A DNA stretch of 14,282 nt from Chytridium lagenaria (lineage: Eukaryota; Chytridiomycota; Chytridiomycetes; Chytridiales; Chytridiaceae). The stretch spans positions 1 to 14,282 of the forward strand of contig JAHLKC010000324.1 of assembly GCA_025449115.1 (NCBI GenBank), read 5' to 3'. Under the pieces are notes generated by a model. It was not told the origin of the DNA and searched no databases. It was given only the letters and a program-made list of their open reading frames with translations. Numbering within the stretch: position 1 is the stretch's first letter; the number at the start of each line of letters is the position of its first letter. The position numbers were made by a program, and so were the translations under genes. Of this stretch, positions 1 through 11,231 are shown one piece after another.

Positions 1-656
1 GCACCCACACTTTCGTGTGCGGTACCAAGTATGTTATCAACGAGAGACTCAACATCTTCTCGAGTTTGTATCAACACCATAGGGGTATCGACGTGATGAT
101 TCTTGTCCACCAACAAACGTATAATGTTAGAACCAGGACCCAAGGGCGCACCGTCTAACTTATCGTATCTCTTGGGTTGTAAAATACAACGTTCATCTAA
201 GTACACATTCATAGTGTTCTTATCAACATAGGGCTTGTATGCTCTAAATTGCTCCATATCACTGATGACACCTCGATGTATCATTATTACTTTAACCCGA
301 TCTCTCGAGTTATCGCTCAGAGGTACTGTTCCCCATAAGGTGTAAAACAACACGGTCTCCACATCATTACCCTCTCGAGGATATCTCATATGAAACTTTC
401 TTAAGTCTCGACGGTCGGCATCATAATTCTGTGGGCACACTAGATAAAATGCGGTCAAGTTGAACTTCATTATCGTGTCAGCGATAACTTCATGCAACTT
501 TCGTGTACTCTTAGTTGGTAACTCATAGGTCAACTTAGATAAGGCTGACTCAACGGTGGCTATGTATTGCGTATAGGCAACAGCAATTCGAGGAAATGAA
601 ACAGCGTACTGCTTCATCCGACTAGGAGGAGCATAGCTCTCTCCATATCGGCAGGA
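1..656 (-). pseudogene. C-terminal extension of the pol polyprotein downstream of integrase, unrecognised, open to window edge
   Basis: An open frame without stops runs from about 656 to base 1, over 200 codons, with its first Met at 617-615. It follows the integrase core after a frame change near 640, and the reading passes smoothly from the end of the integrase into this frame. I recognise no chromodomain or other named domain. The segment is mixed charged/hydrophobic, with a short aromatic stretch around YTLWGTVPLS. Many Ty3/gypsy integrases carry a variable C-terminal tail, so a DNA- or chromatin-binding tail is possible but is inference only. It could also be a separate ORF starting at the Met at 617, such as an env-like or accessory product; no signal peptide or membrane segment is seen. 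The end lies outside the window. Confidence 0.5.
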
Positions 657-1619
657 TCAAGTAACGATACATTAATAAAAGGAACAGGGCCTTCTTCAGC
701 AGTCCACGTGCGTGGATCAGGGTATTCTTCAGCATAAACATCATCAGAAGATATATTTATACCAAACCGTAAGTCGGCAGGCGTGATAGGATCACGACCA
801 AACATTAACAAGAAAGGAGTCTCTTTTGTAGTAGGATGCATAGTAGTTCTATATGCATAAAGGATATATGGTAAAACATTATCCCAATCAGCGTGTGTTC
901 GTTGGTTAACATACGCACGTATCATCTGACATAAAGTCTTGTTAGTTCTCTCGACGAGACCATTAGCTTGAGGCCAATAAGGCATCGAAAAGGATTGGAC
1001 ACCCAAGTATAATGGCAACTTTGCGCATTAACTCGCTTGGGAAAGGGCTTCCGTTGTCAGAGTGCAGCGAGACTGGGATACCAAATCTACAGAAGCACTG
1101 CTCAACAATAATCTTAGCGACAGTATTCGCTTCAATATCAGGTACAGCAAAGGCATCAGCCCAGCGTGTAAAATAGTCGGTAAGAACAACTACATACTTA
1201 TTCCCATTGATGGATTGTTTCAAGGGACCAACAACATCAATTGCCACGCGGTCCCAAGGTTTATCACCTATGGGACTGGCTTCAGCGCACCTAAGCGCTT
1301 CAGATGATCTTTGGACTGTTGACATATTATACATGTGCTCACATGCGTATATAAATCTCTAGTGACGGTAGGCCACCAGAACCTCTCCAACATAGTGGTA
1401 ACAACTTTTTGGCAGCACCCAAGTGTCCACCAGTCATCATATCGTTATGGATCTGCTCCATAGCGACGATGTGTAAACTACTTGGCACACATAATGCTAA
1501 GCGTACAGGGGAACGCCTCAATAAATAGTTATTCACAGTATAACTCGATACAAGAGTTTATTTCTCATAATTGTATGTTGTGCATTCAACAGCACACCTT
1601 TCTTAAGATCTTCATATCT
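633..1619 (-). pseudogene. Retroelement integrase (HHCC finger and DDE core), frame-broken
   Basis: The integrase would insert the element cDNA into host DNA. The N-terminal zinc finger shows His at 1449-1447 and His at 1425-1423 (HX7H), and a CX2C pair at 1333-1331 and 1324-1322 lying in another frame. The catalytic core has Asp in AIDVVG (1238-1236), Asp in HSDNG (1058-1056) and Glu in LVERTNK (952-950), a spacing of about 35 residues between the last two, so all three catalytic acids survive. The conserved core text FTRWADAF and the downstream motif TPFLLMFGRDP are also typical of Ty3/gypsy integrases. Frame changes lie near 1605, 1535, 1390, 1275 and 1010, and another near 640 leads into the C-terminal extension. 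Each break shifts the reading without losing coding character, so this reads as a full-length integrase interrupted by small indels rather than a truncated one. Confidence 0.85.
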
Positions 1620-4600
1620 GGTAAAGCTCCCGTTTCTAGGAACTTGATAATATTCATGTAAGCAGGGTCACTTCTCTGATGCTTACTAAAATCGTCACTT
1701 GTCTTATTAAAGGCTAAGACGTCGTTCAAAGTATCATCTACACGACTTGTACTTTTCTTAGTACTCGATTTACGCGTACTTCTATTCTCCGCATCCTTAT
1801 CTACGTTATTCACGTGAACTTCAGGATCGGTTATTAAGACTGGTAACGTCATCAACGTTTCAGTCCCAGCGAGAAAAGGATCTTCTTGTTCTATCGTCAA
1901 CTCTACGAGTTGATGGTCACTAAGTCCAGACATATATCTATGGTGAACTGACCACCTAGCGTGAAGGCTAGGATCAATCATTATATAGTCGACCCTCCAC
2001 AAGCTCTGGTGTCTGGCTTGCGGGTCATGCCAAGTATAACCTGGGTCGTGTGGATGGCAATGTCTAAAGCCATCAATGAAGCCATGCTTCTTATAAAAAT
2101 ACAACTCGTTGAAGAGCTTAACTTCTTCTTGCTCAAAGCCAGAATAACCAACCATACGCATAGGAAAGCGTATGTCGAATGAGGAACGAGCTACATTAAA
2201 GTCGCCAGCGACGATAGTGCTCTTCCTATGTTTCATCTCCTCGATGAAACTATTGCATTTAGAGAGGAATCTCATTTTATAATCCTGTCTAGCTTGACTT
2301 CTAGACCCGTTAGGGACATACACGTTAACGACGTACATTCCGGGTAGAGAGATAGTCACGCATCGACCTTCACCTCCTTGGCTCCACTCGTTATCAGGAG
2401 CATCCTCACGGAGACAGATGCCTCGGCGGGCCTCTTTCTCTATGACGGGGAGTCCCTTGCGGACAAAAGTAGCGACACCAGCATAACCGGATCTCATGTC
2501 ATCGGCATGCACGTTCCAGTTCTCTAGGTTCATCAACTGATCCCAGAAGAGCTGTCTTTTCTGACTAATGCGTGTCTCTTGGAGACATACTATCTGATAA
2601 CCTTGCTTCTCGAAATATCGAGCGAGGCATTCTGCCGGATTGGCTTCATCGCCTTCCAACTTCTGTCCATAGAGGACCATGGCTAAGCGATGGAGTCCAT
2701 TAACATTCCAGCTCACTATTCGTAGCTTAGAGTCTTCAATCAATGGAGACTTCACTTTTGGGGAAGGTTTAAGTTCCTTCAACGTATTTGGTTTACAGTC
2801 GTTGACCATATTCTCAGGTACTCTTGCAAAGTGCGTGGTACTATTAACTCCATACAACTCTAGTAAGGATAATGGATCCGTCTTACGCTCTTTCCGTTCA
2901 GGAATAGGGTACGTAAGCTCGCGGATATCATAAATACGATAAGCATAATACTTTCTCATATATTCTTCTAATCCCATTGACATAGGATCAGGAAACTCAT
3001 TAGTTCCTGGGGGAATTGGTTTGGAGACATGCATGACGTGGGTAACGGCGCCATGCTTTCTATGAGGCTCGCCGCCTAGAGGATCTCTATCATCATTGAT
3101 ATTAACTATCCAAATTCGTTTGAGACCATCTAGTCTCGCAGGATAATAGACATAGTCCTTAGTACCATTGATAATGTCTTTCAACGGTTCTGGTGTCATT
3201 CTGACGAAGACATCAGATCTCTTACTATACTGCAAGCTTTGACTCAGATTCTCTCTTGAGGGAATATGACTTTTTACCATGTTCACCCACACTTGAGAGG
3301 GCGACGCATCAGCGAGACCAACACCTTCACTGTTATGGGAGGGAGGGCGGGCTATTACTGTCTTGGAATGCCGTAAGGGGAATTCTTCTAAAGCACGCGT
3401 AGGTACATAAGTCCACAAGTGACGATCGGTGATAGTAAAGAAACACCGTATATCCTCAGGGACTAACATGTCCTGTAACTGCAGTACATTATATACTGTA
3501 TAATCATAACCTCCTTCTGATGTAGGGGAAGTGGTAGATAAAGCTTCACTAACTGTGAAGACGTAACGTAATTTATTAACAGGAGACTTCTCAAACACCC
3601 ATACACGGTCGACGCTGTCCGGCAGCGCAAACGGCAGATGAATGGTAGAGATGTTTTGTAACAGCACATCCATGACAATGGCTGGTTGAAGAGGGATAAG
3701 GGCATCCTCTCGTGGTAATACGCTTTCAACGACTGTGGTAATAACTTCTTTCTCCTGAAAGAGTTCACTTTGGAGCATCATCTTGTTCTTAGGACGCGAA
3801 TCTTTGCCGATATGTACTTTGGCAACATTTTCTGGAACAGTAACTACTGTATCATCGGAGGACGTTTCCGCATCCGCCTTAGGTTTGAAGATGCGAGATA
3901 GTGCATCAGCAACAGCCTGACTCTTGCCAGGTGTATGGACCAACTCAATCTCATGATCCTGTAGGGCATATGCCCATCGAGCAAAGCGACCGCGTAAGTC
4001 CCCTTTAGAGAACAAAGGTATCAAGGCAGAATGATCTGTCTCAATGCGATATGGCTTGTGCCATGTGTATGGTTCAAATAAGTTTGCAGACCACACGACA
4101 GCTAATCCTTCACGGTCAGTGTTGGAGTAGTTTTGTTCGGCTTTGTTAAGCGTGCGGGAAGCAAACGCGACAGGAAATAGTTCACCATCACGCTTCACAA
4201 ACAATGCAGCACCAATGCCATACTTGGATGCGTCGCAAGAAATGATAAACTCATCACCGGGTAACGGATTCGTTAACTGGACCTCGGCTTTTAATATAGC
4301 TATTAAGTCGACGGAACGAGGACTCACAAGAGTCCGTCCAAACAAAAGGGTGTCCTTCTGCATCAAGTTAGTCAAAGGATGAGCAACATCAGAGAAGCTT
4401 GGTACAAAGCGACGAAAGTAGTTAGTGAAACCAAGAAAGCGTTGAATATCTAGCAACGATTTTGGGGTAGGCCATTCATCTAGCTTCTTTAACTTCTCAG
4501 GATCAGGCTTGATGCCATCCTTAGAAACGACGTGTCCTAGGAAAGGGAGAACGTTAAAGAAGAATTGGCACTTCTTGGGCTTGAGCTTTAAGTTATGCTC

Positions 4601-5425
4601 GAGTAGTCTGTCAATTACGAGTTGAAGACTTTCAAGATGTGAATCAACATCTTTTGAGAAGATGATAATATCATCAATGTATACCATGCAGTGCATCCAT
4701 TTAAGCCCCGCAAGGACGGTATCCATACTTCTTTGAAAAGTTGGGGGACTATTCGTTAAACCAAAAGGCATAACGTCATATTCATAGAGTCCATCAGGCG
4801 TCACAAACGCCGTCTTATGACGGTCCTCGGGTTTCATGGGAATCTGCCAGAAACCAGAAAGCAGGTCCAGAGATGAGAACATAGTGCTACCGGCAAGACG
4901 ATCAAACATCTCATCTATGCGGGGTAGTGGGTATTTATCCTTAACTGTGACGTTGTTAAGTCGGCGGAAGTCGGTACAGAAACGCATAGTTCCATCCTTC
5001 TTCTTTGCAAGACACACAGGTGAGGCAAAGGGGGAACGAGACTCACGGATGACTCCTGTTTTCAACATCTCGGCGACATGGTCGCGGATAATCTTGGCGC
5101 GCTCCAAACCTACTGGGTATGGTGGGGCATTGGGAGGCCTTGAGAAAGGCATAAGATCAACGGTGTGAACACCGGGGGATTTGTTTCCCGTTACAACATA
5201 TTCACGGAAAACATCGGCGTTGGTTCCTTTAACAAGGAATTGCTTTAATCGCTCCACAGTGTCTTTATCGGCAATATGGGAGTACTCAAACTTAGTGAGA
5301 AGTTCTTCATTAGTGACGGGAGTCATGTTCTTAAGGTAATCCATACGGTCCTCACTGGTATAATCATTAGTCTGAAAACGTATTTCAGCTTCATTATTTA
5401 TGATAGACTCTTCAAGTGATTTCAT
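1586..5425 (-). CDS. pol: Pol polyprotein segment: reverse transcriptase, RNase H, unknown spacer, ExoIII/APE1-like endonuclease
   Basis: This 1,279-codon ORF copies the element RNA into DNA and adds a nuclease. RT lies at about residues 100-300, with catalytic Asp187 in SSLDLLSGF and the YIDD box at 249-252 (MVYIDDIIIFS), plus the MPFGLTNSPPTFQ motif. RNase H lies at about 391-512, with Asp398, Glu439, Asp464 and Asp507 (ADALSR) all present. Residues 512-900 match nothing I know. An EEP nuclease fills 901-1180 with every key residue. Residues 1180-1279 are a Ser/Lys/Asp-rich linker to integrase. The frame is open without an ATG up to 5512, so the Met at 5425 is probably internal to a larger polyprotein. 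Residues about 359-377 are out of frame: the family motif WTDSCE is found in another frame there, so two compensating indels flank 4290-4352. The stop at 1586 falls where the frame slips into integrase, so it is probably not the original end. Confidence 0.93.
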   Translation of the reverse strand: MKSLEESIINNEAEIRFQTNDYTSEDRMDYLKNMTPVTNEELLTKFEYSHIADKDTVERLKQFLVKGTNADVFREYVVTGNKSPGVHTVDLMPFSRPPNAPPYPVGLERAKIIRDHVAEMLKTGVIRESRSPFASPVCLAKKKDGTMRFCTDFRRLNNVTVKDKYPLPRIDEMFDRLAGSTMFSSLDLLSGFWQIPMKPEDRHKTAFVTPDGLYEYDVMPFGLTNSPPTFQRSMDTVLAGLKWMHCMVYIDDIIIFSKDVDSHLESLQLVIDRLLEHNLKLKPKKCQFFFNVLPFLGHVVSKDGIKPDPEKLKKLDEWPTPKSLLDIQRFLGFTNYFRRFVPSFSDVAHPLTNLMQKDTLLFGRTLVSPRSVDLIAILKAEVQLTNPLPGDEFIISCDASKYGIGAALFVKRDGELFPVAFASRTLNKAEQNYSNTDREGLAVVWSANLFEPYTWHKPYRIETDHSALIPLFSKGDLRGRFARWAYALQDHEIELVHTPGKSQAVADALSRIFKPKADAETSSDDTVVTVPENVAKVHIGKDSRPKNKMMLQSELFQEKEVITTVVESVLPREDALIPLQPAIVMDVLLQNISTIHLPFALPDSVDRVWVFEKSPVNKLRYVFTVSEALSTTSPTSEGGYDYTVYNVLQLQDMLVPEDIRCFFTITDRHLWTYVPTRALEEFPLRHSKTVIARPPSHNSEGVGLADASPSQVWVNMVKSHIPSRENLSQSLQYSKRSDVFVRMTPEPLKDIINGTKDYVYYPARLDGLKRIWIVNINDDRDPLGGEPHRKHGAVTHVMHVSKPIPPGTNEFPDPMSMGLEEYMRKYYAYRIYDIRELTYPIPERKERKTDPLSLLELYGVNSTTHFARVPENMVNDCKPNTLKELKPSPKVKSPLIEDSKLRIVSWNVNGLHRLAMVLYGQKLEGDEANPAECLARYFEKQGYQIVCLQETRISQKRQLFWDQLMNLENWNVHADDMRSGYAGVATFVRKGLPVIEKEARRGICLREDAPDNEWSQGGEGRCVTISLPGMYVVNVYVPNGSRSQARQDYKMRFLSKCNSFIEEMKHRKSTIVAGDFNVARSSFDIRFPMRMVGYSGFEQEEVKLFNELYFYKKHGFIDGFRHCHPHDPGYTWHDPQARHQSLWRVDYIMIDPSLHARWSVHHRYMSGLSDHQLVELTIEQEDPFLAGTETLMTLPVLITDPEVHVNNVDKDAENRSTRKSSTKKSTSRVDDTLNDVLAFNKTSDDFSKHQRSDPAYMNIIKFLETGALPDMKILRKVCC
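1883..2725 (-). other. ExoIII/APE1-type endonuclease (EEP) domain inside pol
   Basis: Residues 901-1181 of the pol ORF. Motifs in order: SWNVNGLH (Asn907), VCLQETR (Glu950, the metal ligand), SGYAGVATF, VNVYVPNGS (Tyr1036), VAGDFNVA (Asp1075 and Asn1077), DGFRHCHP, WRVDY (Asp1146) and LSDHQL (Asp1170, His1171). These correspond to the full active-site set of ExoIII/APE1 enzymes. The spacing and the FRHxxP and WRxDY boxes place it with the AP-endonuclease branch rather than with phosphatases or DNase I. This family cuts DNA at abasic sites, and in non-LTR retrotransposons a relative nicks the target to prime reverse transcription. No break interrupts the domain, and it is in frame with RT. Confidence 0.92.
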
Positions 5426-5995
5426 ATCATCACCAGATAAAAGCTGCTCGGGCGGACCCTCAGCACTTGGGAAGTTATCACCAGATATGTAACCTTCATC
5501 TTCAGTGGTCAGTTAACCATGGGCATATGTTCGGGGACATCCATCATAGGGTCCCTGCTCTCATCGCTGTCGGGTTCACCGACGTGGTTTATAGCTTCCT
5601 CAATCTTATTTGAGGCTATGGAACTTACGTTTCCGGGGAACCTTGGAGGACTTCTACTAGCAGAAGGTTTCTCACCAGCAGCGATGCGGGACTTTTCCTA
5701 AATGCATCATTTCCGTGACAAAGAACAAAGTCAAGTTCACATCGTCATCAAAAGCCTCCGATAGGGGAGCTATAAAATCCACCGTGGTTTGATCTGAATC
5801 ATCAAAGAAGGCAACGGGTGTGCCCTTCCTAAGCCACTTGCCATGAGGCCCATGATGGGCTATCTGTAGGGGGAAAGGTTTCATATCCACCTTCTTGCGT
5901 TTGAATCCTGGGGAATCATCAGCAAGATACTTCATGCCATTCTCAAAGAGGTTCATCATGAGAATAGATTGTTCGTTCTGAGGCGACATCTACAT
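5426..5995 (-). pseudogene. Protease-to-RT linker of the polyprotein, frame-broken
   Basis: Three open segments continue the polyprotein between protease and RT. One covers 5989-5672, starting MSPQNEQS, with an acidic stretch FFDDSDQ. The second runs from about 5690 to 5515 and has a Ser/Pro-rich part and an acidic part (EPDSDESRD). The third, 5512-5426, is in the pol frame (ISGDNFPSAEGPPEQ) and leads without a stop into the pol Met at 5425. The changes of frame fall near 5995, 5690 and 5510. No domain is recognised; the composition fits a flexible linker. Confidence 0.55.
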
Positions 5996-7096
5996 TATCC
6001 GTAGAAGGTTCGGCAATGTAATACTTCTGTGGGATATCTGGTAAACGGTCCATGGTGCACATAATCGTTGAACGCATATATGGATCTAAGTACACGTCTT
6101 CTGCGGCGACGCAACGGATAAAAGGTGTTTCACTTTTATACGTAGGGCCAGCTTCCGTGACTTTAGTGGGGTCTCGTAAGCTCTAACGCCTAAATCGGGG
6201 TGACTATAGTAATACTTCAGGGTACTTCTGCTTGTAAGTATATCCATGTAGAATCCAAGTATAACGGCATGCCAAGGATAATAGTTTTGGGCATTCTTTA
6301 ACGATAAAGAATTCAAACCACTTTTTAACGTTGGGAGTGGAAGACCCTGGGGAAACGCTTAAAGTACACTTCCCTAATAATGGTTGTCTACCACCGATAC
6401 CAGTGGAGTATTTCCAGGTTTAAATGAACGACAAAACTTCGCGTCCCTGCCGCATAAGATCATAAAGTAAAGATAATCTGATAACATTACAATTGGCGCC
6501 TCCGTCAAGAAGTGCGTCACAATATAAATACCGGAAACTCGTGAACATATCTGCATAACGTGAGGTTGTTCATGATCTATGAGAGTCTGCGGGACCTCAT
6601 CAAGAATAACGGGATCCGTTTGTATGTCCATGCAACACATTCCTTTGGACTTGTAATATAAATCAAGTTCATCTTCCGTAGTTTCACAACTTAGTACGTG
6701 GGGCTCAAGTTTGGCGTCCAAAGACGCGTCCATTTTTACGATGTTTTCACAAACGACATTGGTGCAAGCTTCTTTATTGAAGAGAGACTCCTTGTCCGTT
6801 ATGGACGCAAATTCCTGTACACCACCGATACTTGAGTGTGTGTTTGTTCCACTATGCTGCTTCTCCAGAGGAGGTGTAGCGTCTGGCCACGGCGGTGTTA
6901 ATACCGTCGGAGGGTCTCGTCTAAATCTACCTGGTAGAGATCTCGAGCGCTTAACAAATTGACGAAACTGTTTTGACGTTTTAGATTCTGAATCTAAACC
7001 TCTTGAAGCTGCAAGCTTCTCTACCCCCTTACGAAATAACGCGTCGCGTTTTTGACGGCGTGAAGGTCGTCGAGATATCGCCTTAATAAAGGTCTA
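5996..7096 (-). pseudogene. Retropepsin-type aspartic protease region with basic N-terminal extension, frame-broken
   Basis: An open frame without early Met runs from 7096 to 6374. It begins with a very basic stretch (SRRPSRRQKRD) and continues through proline-rich and acidic parts. Near 6550 the reading moves to another frame, which carries the active-site box ALLDGGANCNVI with the catalytic Asp at 6506-6504. About 76 codons further on, in a third frame, is the flap-distal motif IILGM at 6279-6268, the usual ILG box of retropepsins. Active site plus ILG at this distance is the protease signature. DGG instead of DTG or DSG is unusual. A TAA near 6426 interrupts the frame that carries the active site, and further frame changes lie near 6240-6300 and 6120. 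The protease would mature Gag and Pol as a homodimer. The basic start may belong to the nucleocapsid end of Gag. Confidence 0.7.
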
Positions 7097-7201: not shown

Positions 7202-9185
7202 TTATTCGGGCGGCGAACACGAACGAATGTGTACTGTAAGAACCTTCATCAAAGGGATAGTACCGCTTGGTGTGCTGGTGAACACCCGACATTGGTAGAT
7301 TGGTAGACTAGTGGAGCTATCAACCAAGGGAACAACTTCATGAGTAGGAGTGACGTTATCGGGAACATCAGCGTCTGGAGAGGCGTCAAGGCACCATGCA
7401 TAACAGGTGTCGTCCTCGTCGGTGCAATATCGACGGAAGTTGCCAAAGTCGGTTTTCAAAGCCAACGGTGAAGTAGTGCTTAATTGAATAAGCTCGCCAA
7501 TCAAGAGCTCAGGTAAACGAGGTCGCGTAATAATGATAGAAGCCGCATAATGACGCTTCAAGTAATTAATGTATTCAGCAAGCTGATCATCGCTTTCTGA
7601 AATGTATATGACCTTATCGGCAAAATCAGACGGAAAGTCCTTATAGCCAACAGCGTGAGATAAGACCTTATCGTAGTCAAATTGAACCACATTAGTTTCA
7701 AAGGACCACACGTCGTCGTCTGGATTTTGACTCTTCCGTATAATAGGAGGAGGTGTTTTTATTGAAGGATAAAAATGAGAACACGTAGTAAACAATAAAC
7801 TAGAAGGCACTACATATTTTAAAACTTTTGTTGAGGATAAAAGTGGAGGCGTCATTGTAGGCGCGGTTGACGTAGAAAAAGGCAGGGGTGGAATTTCTAC
7901 TTTAGGGGGATTCCACTTAATTCTATCGAAATCGTCAGAAGGGTTCGTAAAAATAGAACTCTCACCACTAAACAAGGCATAGGCCCTCTGATGATCAGGA
8001 CACACGTCTAGAGCATGGGTGCGGTGGAGGGGGCATATGAACATGCTCTCTGTCTGTCCAGCAGGTAACTGGAGAGAAGATCGATCCTGTGAAGAAGGTA
8101 AAATCACAGGGGTTGGAGCCACTGGCGTCGCATTAGCAGTAGCGGGAGCGAAGCGAGGAGGTTCAACAGAGTTGTCGCGGGATCGATTAGTCCACCCACC
8201 CTTAAAGGTGGAAGTAGGAGGCATGGACCTAGCCATGTTACGACGAAATTGATCAGGATCGCGACGATAATCAGTCATCTTAGCTTCAAAGGCTAAGATT
8301 TCAGGCCTCGACGGTGGAGCAAAGTCGGGGTCAAGAGATCGGTAATCTTCGATGGCGAATTCAGCAACAGCCTTCACGAACTTATCCATGAAAGTGCGGT
8401 CGGTAACGAGGGCAGGTAAAGACTCCTCAAAGCTAGTAAATGCGTAATTAATTAACGGTTTACGCACAGGAGACGTGCCAGGGGTTGCACGTTTTTCCAC
8501 GCTGGCGAGTCTCTGCTCTAGAGCCTTGAGGGTATTGACCATAGTAGCATTAATATGGCCCGACGATCCAGCGTTAAACCGAACTTTAGATGCCATGCCG
8601 CGGAAAAGATCACTCATGTCCAGAGATGTAGAGTCCCATGCCTGACCATCAAACGTTTCAGTCTGGGCAGTGTTGGACCAGTCCAGTCAGAGCAACTCAA
8701 TAAAAGACTTTCGGAGCTGATGATCCGACATACGTTTGACGCGAGGAGAACGTTATTCATGTCTCGAAGGCGAGCCCAGGATTTCTTAGGCGCGTCGGCA
8801 GAGTCGAAGTCCCAGTGAAACGAGTCAACGTCCTTGACGATTTTCGCGTCGGTCACCTTCTCAGCAAAAGAGGTACGAAACTCTTAACGAACGAATCCCA
8901 GGTCTCGGCATTAGTGCAAGACCCAGAAAACCATTTAGCTCCACCTCGAAACATCTTTTCAGCGTTCTTCGTTGAGTTGAAGGCGTCGTCCATGTCAAAA
9001 AAGGCGGGGAGTGCTTCTAGAATTCGACACAGAGACCCCCTGTTCGAGGATATTGCGGTAACGAGCGAGGAAAATCAATGCATCCTGCTCATTCCCTGAT
9101 TGTCGAAAGTCAATTCCTCAACGCGCTTGATAATGCGTTTACGAATGTCCCCATTGCTGGCAGAACCGGTGGCAGTGGTACTCAT
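7202..9185 (-). pseudogene. gag: Gag: capsid region and atypical zinc knuckle, frame-broken
   Basis: A possible start is the ATG at 9185-9183 (MSTTATGSA), which overlaps the upstream stop as ATGA. Short segments in alternating frames then give capsid-type text: DALIFLARYRNILE (about 9095-9040), FRGGAKWFSGS and AETWDSFVKSF (about 8960-8880), FAEKVTD and KKSWARLRDM (about 8870-8750). The AKWF...ETWDSFVKSF pattern is that of Ty3/gypsy Gag. An intact 471-codon segment then covers 8617-7202. It has a short heptad stretch (KALEQRLASVEKR, residues 31-43), Pro/Ser/Thr-rich linkers, and CX2HX2HX4C at residues 195-206 (8035-8000), likely an RNA-binding knuckle. Its last 170 residues are not recognised. 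Frame changes lie near 9080, 9030, 8870 and 8690. Gag would package the RNA and form the particle. Confidence 0.72.
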
Positions 9186-11105
9186 AGAGGAACAACGACG
9201 GAAGTATCAGAGATACGTGAACGAGACGATGATATTGAAGAGTCTCGACTAGAGTCAGAAGCGTGATGGCCTCCGTTTGATCGATATCCAGATGAAGGTC
9301 TGGGAGATAACGAGCGTGACGAACGTGACGATGTTGACGATAAAGAGTCACTAGAGGATCCAGGTGAGGAGGGCGAAAAAGCGTTCTCTTCAACGGCAAA
9401 AATGCGTGGCAACAACAGGATTATCGGCAGCGACGGGCTTAGAGTCTACGATACTCAACATTAGCCTCAGAAAAAGAATTCGTAGGTATAGAGGAATCTC
9501 AAGACTCTCACCAAAGAGGGGTTTTCCCAGGTAACGTAAAAGAAACGAGATCAGGAATTTCGAAGTTGAAAGGGCTGTTGGAGGGAGCACCAAGGTTAAC
9601 CAAAGGTCGGAAAGGTGTACCTTTAGCCTGAATGTAATCAAATGATGAGAACTTACATCAAATAGCAAAGCTCGAGAGTGAGACCTAGGGGACTCAAAGT
9701 AAACGAACTGCGGGCTGCAGTGCAGGTGGAAGCACTGATGGCTGTTTAGATGGAGGATTGGAATACCTCTAATGTCCGACGTATGTTATGATTGGGTCAG
9801 AATTGTCTTGGGTCGTTGTTTTCAACGAGATCTAACAACAAATTTTCAACTTTTATTTTTTGATCGAGGATTGATGCATCGGCGGAACTGCATCCTCACG
9901 AGAGAGGCCGTTGATAGCTTGACGGGTTCTACAGGTAGTGCACTATCTGTTTTGAAAGCGTTAACCTGTAAGAAGGCCTTACTACTCATCTGGATTACCT
10001 CGGGGAGGTAGGTTTCTATAACTTCGTTATATTCTTCTGGATACCACGATTATGGGAAGGGGTGATATTAGGGATCTGGAGGATATACAATCAAAAGGTG
10101 GATCTGGTTGATACTCTGGACAGAGGAAATCGCGAACACGTGGGATTCGACGAGAGGATCCTCGGACTTGATCATGGATGGATCATAATTGGAATTTGGA
10201 ATTAGATCATCAGTTTGAGGAATAATCCATAAGTGGAGAACGGTGAGGATTCTCTTTTTTGATTATGTTCGTAATTTGTCTGTATCTGTTTTAGAGACAG
10301 ATATCCTAACGACACAGGATTAACTCAGGAGGTTGGGATGCTGAATACTCGCGAAGTCGATTTTATGGTGTACAGGGACGAATTATCGACAGCTGGACCC
10401 AAAGGATATGAGCCTGTGGGAGGTTCAACTCCTTCCTCAGGGGAATTCTGAATCAATTCGACACTTTGGGATCGGGAAAGCGACTCTTCGGCATCAAAAA
10501 GGATTCATCTATTTCGGATGGAGAGGATATGAGGATCACCGAAGATGTCGGGAATTGGACCAGGAGCACCTGAAGCAGGAAGGTTCGAACGCCAATATTA
10601 ACGTATGCAACGGTCGGATTCCAAATAGGATGATGAGAATGGTATTTCCTTCCCAATAAACGACGTTAAAACGGGACGGTTCAGGAATAATATTTCCGTG
10701 GGGTATTCCTTTGGGTGCGGGAGCGACATTGTATGGGAATCAGGACACGCAGTAAGTCGGTCATGCTAAAGGTAAGCCTATTATTAGCTACAATAAACTT
10801 TAACAAATACGGTCCTGGAGAAGAACCGCGCGGAACATCGTACTGGAGTGGGAGGAGATGAAGAGGATCAACTGGATTAGAAAGATAAGAGTATAGTCTT
10901 GATTCATCCATGGACGTATCTAACAGTAATGCGTGTTCAAAACCAGTTGAGGTTCGGAGGAAAAACACGGTTATCTGGAGGATAAGAGGACGCCATGGGC
11001 GTCGCTCGTTAGCAGCCGATCGGAAGGGATGGGCCGATAAAAACTCAGAAGATAAAACTTATCTTCTACACCGCCAGTAGGAGGTCGCGGATAGTTTCGG
11101 TTCAT
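9182..11105 (-). pseudogene. Unrecognised Pro/Ser-rich ORF upstream of gag (or Gag N-terminal extension), frame-broken
   Basis: The ATG at 11105-11103 has A at -3 and is the first minus-strand ATG below 12893, which makes it the natural start for scanning ribosomes on unspliced RNA. It opens MNRNYPRPPTGG. Coding-like segments then follow in changing frames: 10968-10681 (LLLDTSMDESRLYSY and later), about 10503-10333 (acidic EEGVEPPTGSY), about 10225-10100, 10010-9852 (containing MSSKAFLQVNAF), 9668-9390, and a strongly Ser/Arg-rich stretch at 9415-9182 (SSSDSLSSTSSRSSRSLS) ending in TGA. I recognise no domain. It could be a separate protein or the N-terminal part of a very large Gag; the ATGA junction at 9182-9185 favours a separate ORF, though the density of breaks makes this uncertain. 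That the whole stretch is coding is inferred from long Pro/Ser/acidic open segments on one strand. Confidence 0.45.
11047..11067 (-). other. Perfect 9-bp hairpin just inside the gag-side ORF
   Basis: AGAAGATAA and TTATCTTCT are exact complements separated by three bases. In the transcript the hairpin begins 38 nt after the first base of the AUG at 11105. Downstream hairpins can help initiation at a preceding AUG, and structured leaders can also serve packaging, but the stem is AU-rich and weak, so no function is claimed. Confidence 0.4.
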
Positions 11106-11231
11106 TATAACTTAATAAATAGTAATAAATAACGTAAAGAATTTTTATTAACGAAGTAGTCGATATTAACGTTCACTAGTATGAGATTAGAAAGCAGATA
11201 CAAATGCTTAATAATCTAAAGGTGTTGAGAA
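11106..11231 (-). other. AT-rich spacer between ORF0 and the gag-side ORF
   Basis: This stretch of 126 nt separates the ORF0 stop from the next ATG. It is very A/T-rich, especially in the last 60 nt before the ATG, and contains no ATG. No LTR end, primer-binding site or splice acceptor with a good pyrimidine tract stands out. Confidence 0.5.

Follow-up and report, generated by a model that had tools for sequence, protein, structure and literature searches.

Does the pol gene of a Ty3/gypsy-type retrotransposon in the chytrid Chytridium lagenaria carry a complete APE1/ExoIII-type endonuclease (EEP) domain between RNase H and integrase, as a sequence-only reading of one locus had proposed, and what might such an enzyme do there? 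It is usual to teach LTR elements and LINEs as separate worlds with different cutting enzymes, and it is in LINEs that EEP enzymes nick target DNA. The window analysed is contig C324 at its full length of 14,282 bases, from an assembly of 41.9 Mb in 356 contigs. The features of the element are given below in the direction of its transcription.

7202..8617, minus strand: candidate gag, 471 aa, from its position and 24-31% identity to the frame upstream of the C76 pol (E 6.7e-11)
6374..6733, minus strand: protease-region fragment, 51% identical to the N-terminal part of C198 (E 5.8e-25)
5672..5989, minus strand: fragment from the protease-RT interval, 60% identical to the C198 frame (E 1.4e-32)
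1586..5425, minus strand: pol open reading frame, RT-RNase H-ASCH-ASCH-EEP, 1279 aa (open frame and Pfam)
4529..5005, minus strand: reverse transcriptase (RT), RVT_1, pol residues 141-299 (PF00078, E 1.1e-36)
3956..4306, minus strand: RNase H domain (PF17919, residues 374-458; PF17917, residues 390-490, E 2e-28)
3380..3745, minus strand: probable ASCH-like copy 1, diverged, 19% identical by alignment to the modelled copy
2798..3226, minus strand: ASCH-like (PUA-like) copy 2, N-terminal to the EEP
1913..2716, minus strand: EEP (APE1/ExoIII-type) nuclease domain, pol residues 904-1171 (PF03372, E 4.9e-17)
1315..1455, minus strand: integrase HHCC finger, approximate, read by eye, out of frame with pol
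963..1334, minus strand: integrase core part 1, in its own frame (rve PF00665, E 1.8e-11)
614..1018, minus strand: integrase core part 2 (QANGLVERTNK), weak match to rve_3 PF13683 (E 0.003, 17.7 bits, under the cut-off of 26.5)
3..617, minus strand: extension beyond the integrase core (tblastn to C198, E 2.8e-61, 51%)

The Pfam order here and in many further copies confirms an EEP within a Ty3/gypsy-type pol, between RNase H and integrase. The domain covers the Exo_endo_phos profile PF03372 end to end (1-225 of 225), and each of the seven catalytic residues named beforehand was found in the C324 pol (N907, E950, Y1036, D1075, N1077, D1170 and H1171). The further claim of a single open frame with a DDE integrase after it holds for the copy on C198 and fails for the window copy, whose pol frame ends at a stop at 1586, ahead of the integrase. 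Since the parts of the window integrase sit in frames other than that of pol, this integrase is broken, and the copy is decayed beyond the EEP; the C198 counterpart of its HHCC finger is a clear PF17921 match (E 1.5e-14). The window start falls inside the element, and the window holds no LTR pair, as no direct repeat reaches 40 bases anywhere in its 14,282. The protease region gave no Pfam match in the scans of the window and C198, and neither did the candidate gag; C198 has the stretches LLDGGANCNVI and PIILGMP, read by eye, which by their motif we take to be a putative aspartic protease.

Searches of the assembly found at least 134 EEP, at least 86 RT-RNase H and at least 67 integrase matches, which merged by contig, strand and distance (600 bases or less) into 76 EEP, 59 RT and 55 integrase places. 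With neighbours accepted up to 9 kb upstream for RT and up to 3 kb downstream for integrase (IN), the 76 EEP places comprise 26 with the order RT-EEP-IN, 9 RT-EEP, 18 EEP-IN and 23 without either neighbour. Spacing is regular: the gap from EEP to integrase is 524-698 bases, except on C89 (331) and C14 (2,408), and most RT matches end about 600 or about 1,000-1,280 bases ahead of the EEP, the outlying gaps running from 229 on C135 up to 5,915 on C109. C198 has RT, RNase H, EEP, HHCC finger, rve and a chromodomain-like end in a single frame of 2,573 aa, and C95 has RT, EEP and integrase matches in one of 1,604 aa. A more distant set of elements, clade B (C11, C137, C94, C63 and C115), has RTs about 30% identical to those of clade A, likewise followed by an EEP. 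In the three that were scanned (C11, C115 and C94) RNase H lies between RT and EEP: the Pfam order is RT-RNase H-EEP-HHCC in C11, to which C115 adds the integrase core, and RT-RNase H-EEP in the frames scanned of C94.

A lone composite at this locus, whether an assembly chimera or a chance nested insertion on C324, found nothing in its favour and is refuted by the repeated RT-EEP-IN order and by a protein from another source. The same domain order stands on many separate contigs, with EEPs differing by about 60%; C120 repeats the window at 97% DNA identity over 8701-11200, with a 99% identical EEP; and the outside protein, P0199, shows RT-RNase H-EEP.

We also searched for clade-A copies that have no EEP among the 24 RT places (merged) away from any EEP, and found no clear case in the 23 other than C296. 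Three are cut short: C115:4048-5727 breaks off within ASCH copy 2, C273 runs off the contig end, and C346 begins at contig base 1. The remaining 20 places have RTs at most 42% identical, and the two of them that were scanned, C222 and C44:222161, carry a normal Ty3 pol without EEP. Some stray EEP matches were also seen: C80, C114, C291 and C319 bear short EEP-like pieces, unassigned to either clade, with identical scores and the same extent (query residues 136-206, at 45%), and C158:33701-34450 bears a frame-broken EEP that is distinct from clade A, possibly clade-B-like, and not clearly a host AP endonuclease.

Relatives outside this genome place the arrangement in a lineage. The ENA protein P0199 is 55% identical in the RT-RNase H part, contains PF00078, PF17917 and PF03372, and continues past the EEP into the region ahead of the integrase core; P0062, a partial protein of Dinochytrium kinnereticum, contains the start of the EEP, matching 43% of the domain at 69% identity, and also the linker, recognized by eye. 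In an RT tree with 22 sampled outside Ty3-type proteins and without a Ty1/copia outgroup, P0199 joins clade A with support 100/100, C135 being outermost, and every one of the 12 clade-A rows derives from an EEP-matching place. The sequence-only reading was right that this is a real Ty3/gypsy-type lineage with an EEP, given the many copies and the relatives P0199 and P0062; it did not notice the ASCH-like domains, nor clade B, which is more distant and bears an EEP as well. We conclude that the element is a divergent Ty3/gypsy lineage with a repair-type EEP in Pol.

Conservation of the EEP was counted over 34 rows, namely unbroken pieces (some from one element) together with P0199 and P0062. 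Wherever the position is covered, the equivalents of N68 (20/20), E96 (23/23), Y171 (25/25), D210 (24/24), D283 (23/23), D308 (17/17) and H309 (17/17) are invariant, and that of N212 is kept in 22 of 23 rows, the exception being a stop read as X. At the equivalent of Trp280 of APE1, 23 covered rows have W in 19, F in 3 (all the covered clade-B rows) and C in one, the clade-A piece C135; three LINE-like EEPs of the same genome have no Trp at this position. Nei-Gojobori comparison of the unbroken EEP pieces, saturated in 147 of 190 pairs, gave dN/dS of 0.02-0.10 in near pairs (for example dN 0.035 and dS 0.83 for C324-C234) and of 0.17-0.42 in wider pairs with readable dS, with 0.09 at dS 3.06 for the clade-B pair C11-C94. 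The EEP is under strong constraint, which means that it is used, and leaves unspecified which use that is.

The affinity of the domain is to repair enzymes. Among solved structures, bacterial ExoIII-type enzymes and APE1 are the closest to it in sequence, and these also head the Foldseek list (ExoIII 1.3e-17, APE1 1.5e-17) for an AlphaFold2 model built from 27 sequences (pLDDT 80.1). In the EEP tree, clades A and B group with ExoIII/APE, and long branches separate them from the three LINE-like EEPs. A single origin of the A and B EEPs passes the AU test (p-AU 0.276); joining the Ty3 EEPs and LINE-like EEPs in one clade is worse, at a p-AU of 0.118 that lies above strict rejection, so that an origin from a LINE-like EEP is disfavoured by these trees. 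Both the RT and the EEP trees fit with the EEP having been captured once, at the base of clade A or perhaps of A plus B, and then inherited alongside the RT.

Between RNase H and EEP, each element has zero to two copies of a domain with a predicted ASCH-like fold. Nine copies of the region drew no Pfam match even with E allowed to reach 10, its PDB matches to ZmASCH are weak (E 0.079), and a profile search put ZmASCH (0.6) level with a calcium ATPase (0.79); the ASCH fold of the domain adjoining the EEP is a prediction from modelling. Compared with ASCH proteins such as ZmASCH and TRIP4/ASC-1, it has no Pfam-level sequence match and is fused into a retrotransposon Pol. Another ASCH-like domain was noticed at L011:8481-8840.

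LTR pairs were found around the EEP elements of C109, C50, C11 and C137, and around that of C95 with a cut first LTR. The LTRs of these relatives (C109, C50, C11 and others) have TG...CA ends, and a sequence resembling a primer-binding site (PBS), TGGGGGCCCAACC, lies just after the 5' LTR in C109, C82 and C50. Flanks were readable in 27 LTR units from clades A and B; C206b was dropped for repeating the left flank of C206a. Exact duplications of 4 bp or more flank 17 of the 27, nine have none and one has 216 bp. Twelve of the 17, including C206a, were called by script, and five were first read by eye; these five and C206a were then recounted. The duplication of C39 (TTTTT) may be 4 or 5 bp, that of C159 requires placing the LTR start 4 bases left of the match, and of the duplication-free units C91 and C46 resemble ends of partial elements. 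The chance of 17 in 27 is about 1e-34 if p = 1/256. Because these 17 insertions show short duplications at their LTR ends, we take the integrase to perform ordinary insertion. The sole EEP-free Ty3 element so read (C44:219645-225641) has a 5-bp duplication, TTCAG, against the mostly 4 bp of the EEP elements.

The exceptional unit is a clade-A insertion at C95 87226-101606, flanked by a 216-bp duplication (87011-87225 and 101607-101823, 97.7% identical), far longer than the usual one. Its 5' LTR is short of its first 8 bases, and its 3' LTR end is exact. The two copies of the duplication correspond to a single region of C11, a clade-B element, and the clade-B host element of the insertion has its own target duplication, GATG. 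C95:84701-108730 as a whole is a clade-A element nested inside a clade-B element, both of which carry an EEP.

What, then, is the EEP for? We put at about one half the probability that it is a captured repair enzyme, acting at abasic sites and blocked 3' ends of the element's cDNA before integration. The domain would be made as part of the Pol polyprotein and cut out of it as an active nuclease; its presumed substrate would be the element's own cDNA, on which it would incise abasic sites and clear blocked 3' ends; the integrase would then insert the repaired cDNA; and the ASCH-like domain may hold nucleic acid. This use is judged the most likely because the EEP is repair-type and strongly constrained, because insertion looks integrase-like, and because the pol slot is the one in which non-primate lentiviruses carry a dUTPase, between RNase H and integrase. 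That enzyme, too, is captured and DNA-repair-related, with a different activity and chemistry. Since ExoIII/APE enzymes act on further structures too, the domain could have several uses besides cDNA repair. A role in repairing cDNA or abasic sites was among those suggested from the letters, and it is supported as a conjecture.

A related and tentative possibility, less probable than cDNA repair, is that the EEP trims nucleic-acid ends as reverse transcription proceeds or once integration has occurred, removing remnants of the tRNA or polypurine primer or helping in flap and gap repair at the joined ends. The activities of ExoIII-type enzymes include 3' exonuclease, 3'-phosphatase and RNase H-type ones, the PBS-like sequence follows the 5' LTR in three copies, and the domain sits between RNase H and integrase; on the other hand the element already has an RNase H, and the two Ty3-type elements with normal pol in the same genome do without an EEP. 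Somewhat less probable again, and in our judgement unlikely, is nicking of the chromosomal target, as in LINEs, which would open a second, integrase-independent route of insertion. The established behaviour of LINE EEPs and the C95 insertion, with its 216-bp duplication and shortened 5' LTR, speak for it; against this, exact duplications of at least 4 bp accompany TG...CA LTR ends in 17 of 27 insertions, and the EEP clusters with ExoIII/APE, apart from LINE-like EEPs. Moreover, at its 3' side the C95 insertion stops exactly at the LTR end, and therefore one-ended joining by integrase followed by faulty repair accounts for it equally well. The earlier idea that the element pairs two target-cutting chemistries accordingly keeps one 216-bp duplication in its favour and is otherwise less supported, because integrase alone explains the duplications of the 17 and the EEP is repair-type, not LINE-type.

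It is improbable, more so than target nicking, that ASCH-like domain and EEP form one module in which the former reads a modified or damaged base and the latter nicks there, for choice or preparation of the insertion site or for integrase-free insertion, perhaps including the C95 duplication. Least probable among these uses is none at all, the EEP being LINE-derived passive cargo without present function. Mosaic retroelements exist, and a clade of Ty3 and LINE-like EEPs stays above strict rejection; the reading is largely refuted by the strong constraint and by catalytic residues that are unchanged in covered rows bar one stop, and the affinity of the domain to ExoIII/APE also opposes it.

Set beside known systems, the element is like Ty3/gypsy in its ordered RT, RNase H and integrase (a single frame in C198, the integrase out of frame in the window), in the TG...CA LTRs and short target duplications of its relatives, and in an RT that falls among Ty3/gypsy RTs. 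With chromoviruses it shares RT, RNase H, HHCC finger and DDE integrase, and the C terminus of C198 is chromodomain-like (PF00385, E 2.9e-4, 21.1 bits, under the cut-off of 25.1); unlike them it has ASCH-like domain(s) and an EEP between RNase H and integrase. Its EEP shares with APE1/ExoIII the predicted fold, the catalytic set and, in nearly all clade-A rows, the AP-pocket Trp, but is only about 30% identical, has extra loops around domain residues 23-40 and 113-122, and is embedded in a retroelement polyprotein. LINE EEP endonucleases belong to the same superfamily and are likewise borne by retroelements; they represent a different EEP branch and domain order, and LINEs (non-LTR elements) lack integrase and LTRs and insert by target-primed reverse transcription, whereas this element has LTRs, an integrase and short target duplications.

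The RNase H-integrase junction of Ty3/gypsy Pol can thus acquire a repair-type EEP and an ASCH-like neighbour, which makes it testable whether abasic or 3'-end damage in retroelement cDNA selects for a repair nuclease. Should the EEP nick targets, an LTR element would have two ways to insert. Among the matches listed from open-licence literature, none was seen to describe a Ty3/gypsy pol that bears an EEP or an ASCH domain; fungal 'complex transposons' that gained numerous extra domains through several insertions have been reported, in passages that name no EEP (PMC3248453). An RT joined to an ExoIII-like EEP also occurs in proteins of another kind: 58 of the 61 listed as P0001-P0061 have both (PF00078 for the RT), nearly all of these 58 with the group II intron-type domains PF13655 and PF08388, and the EEP is N-terminal in P0001 and P0002.
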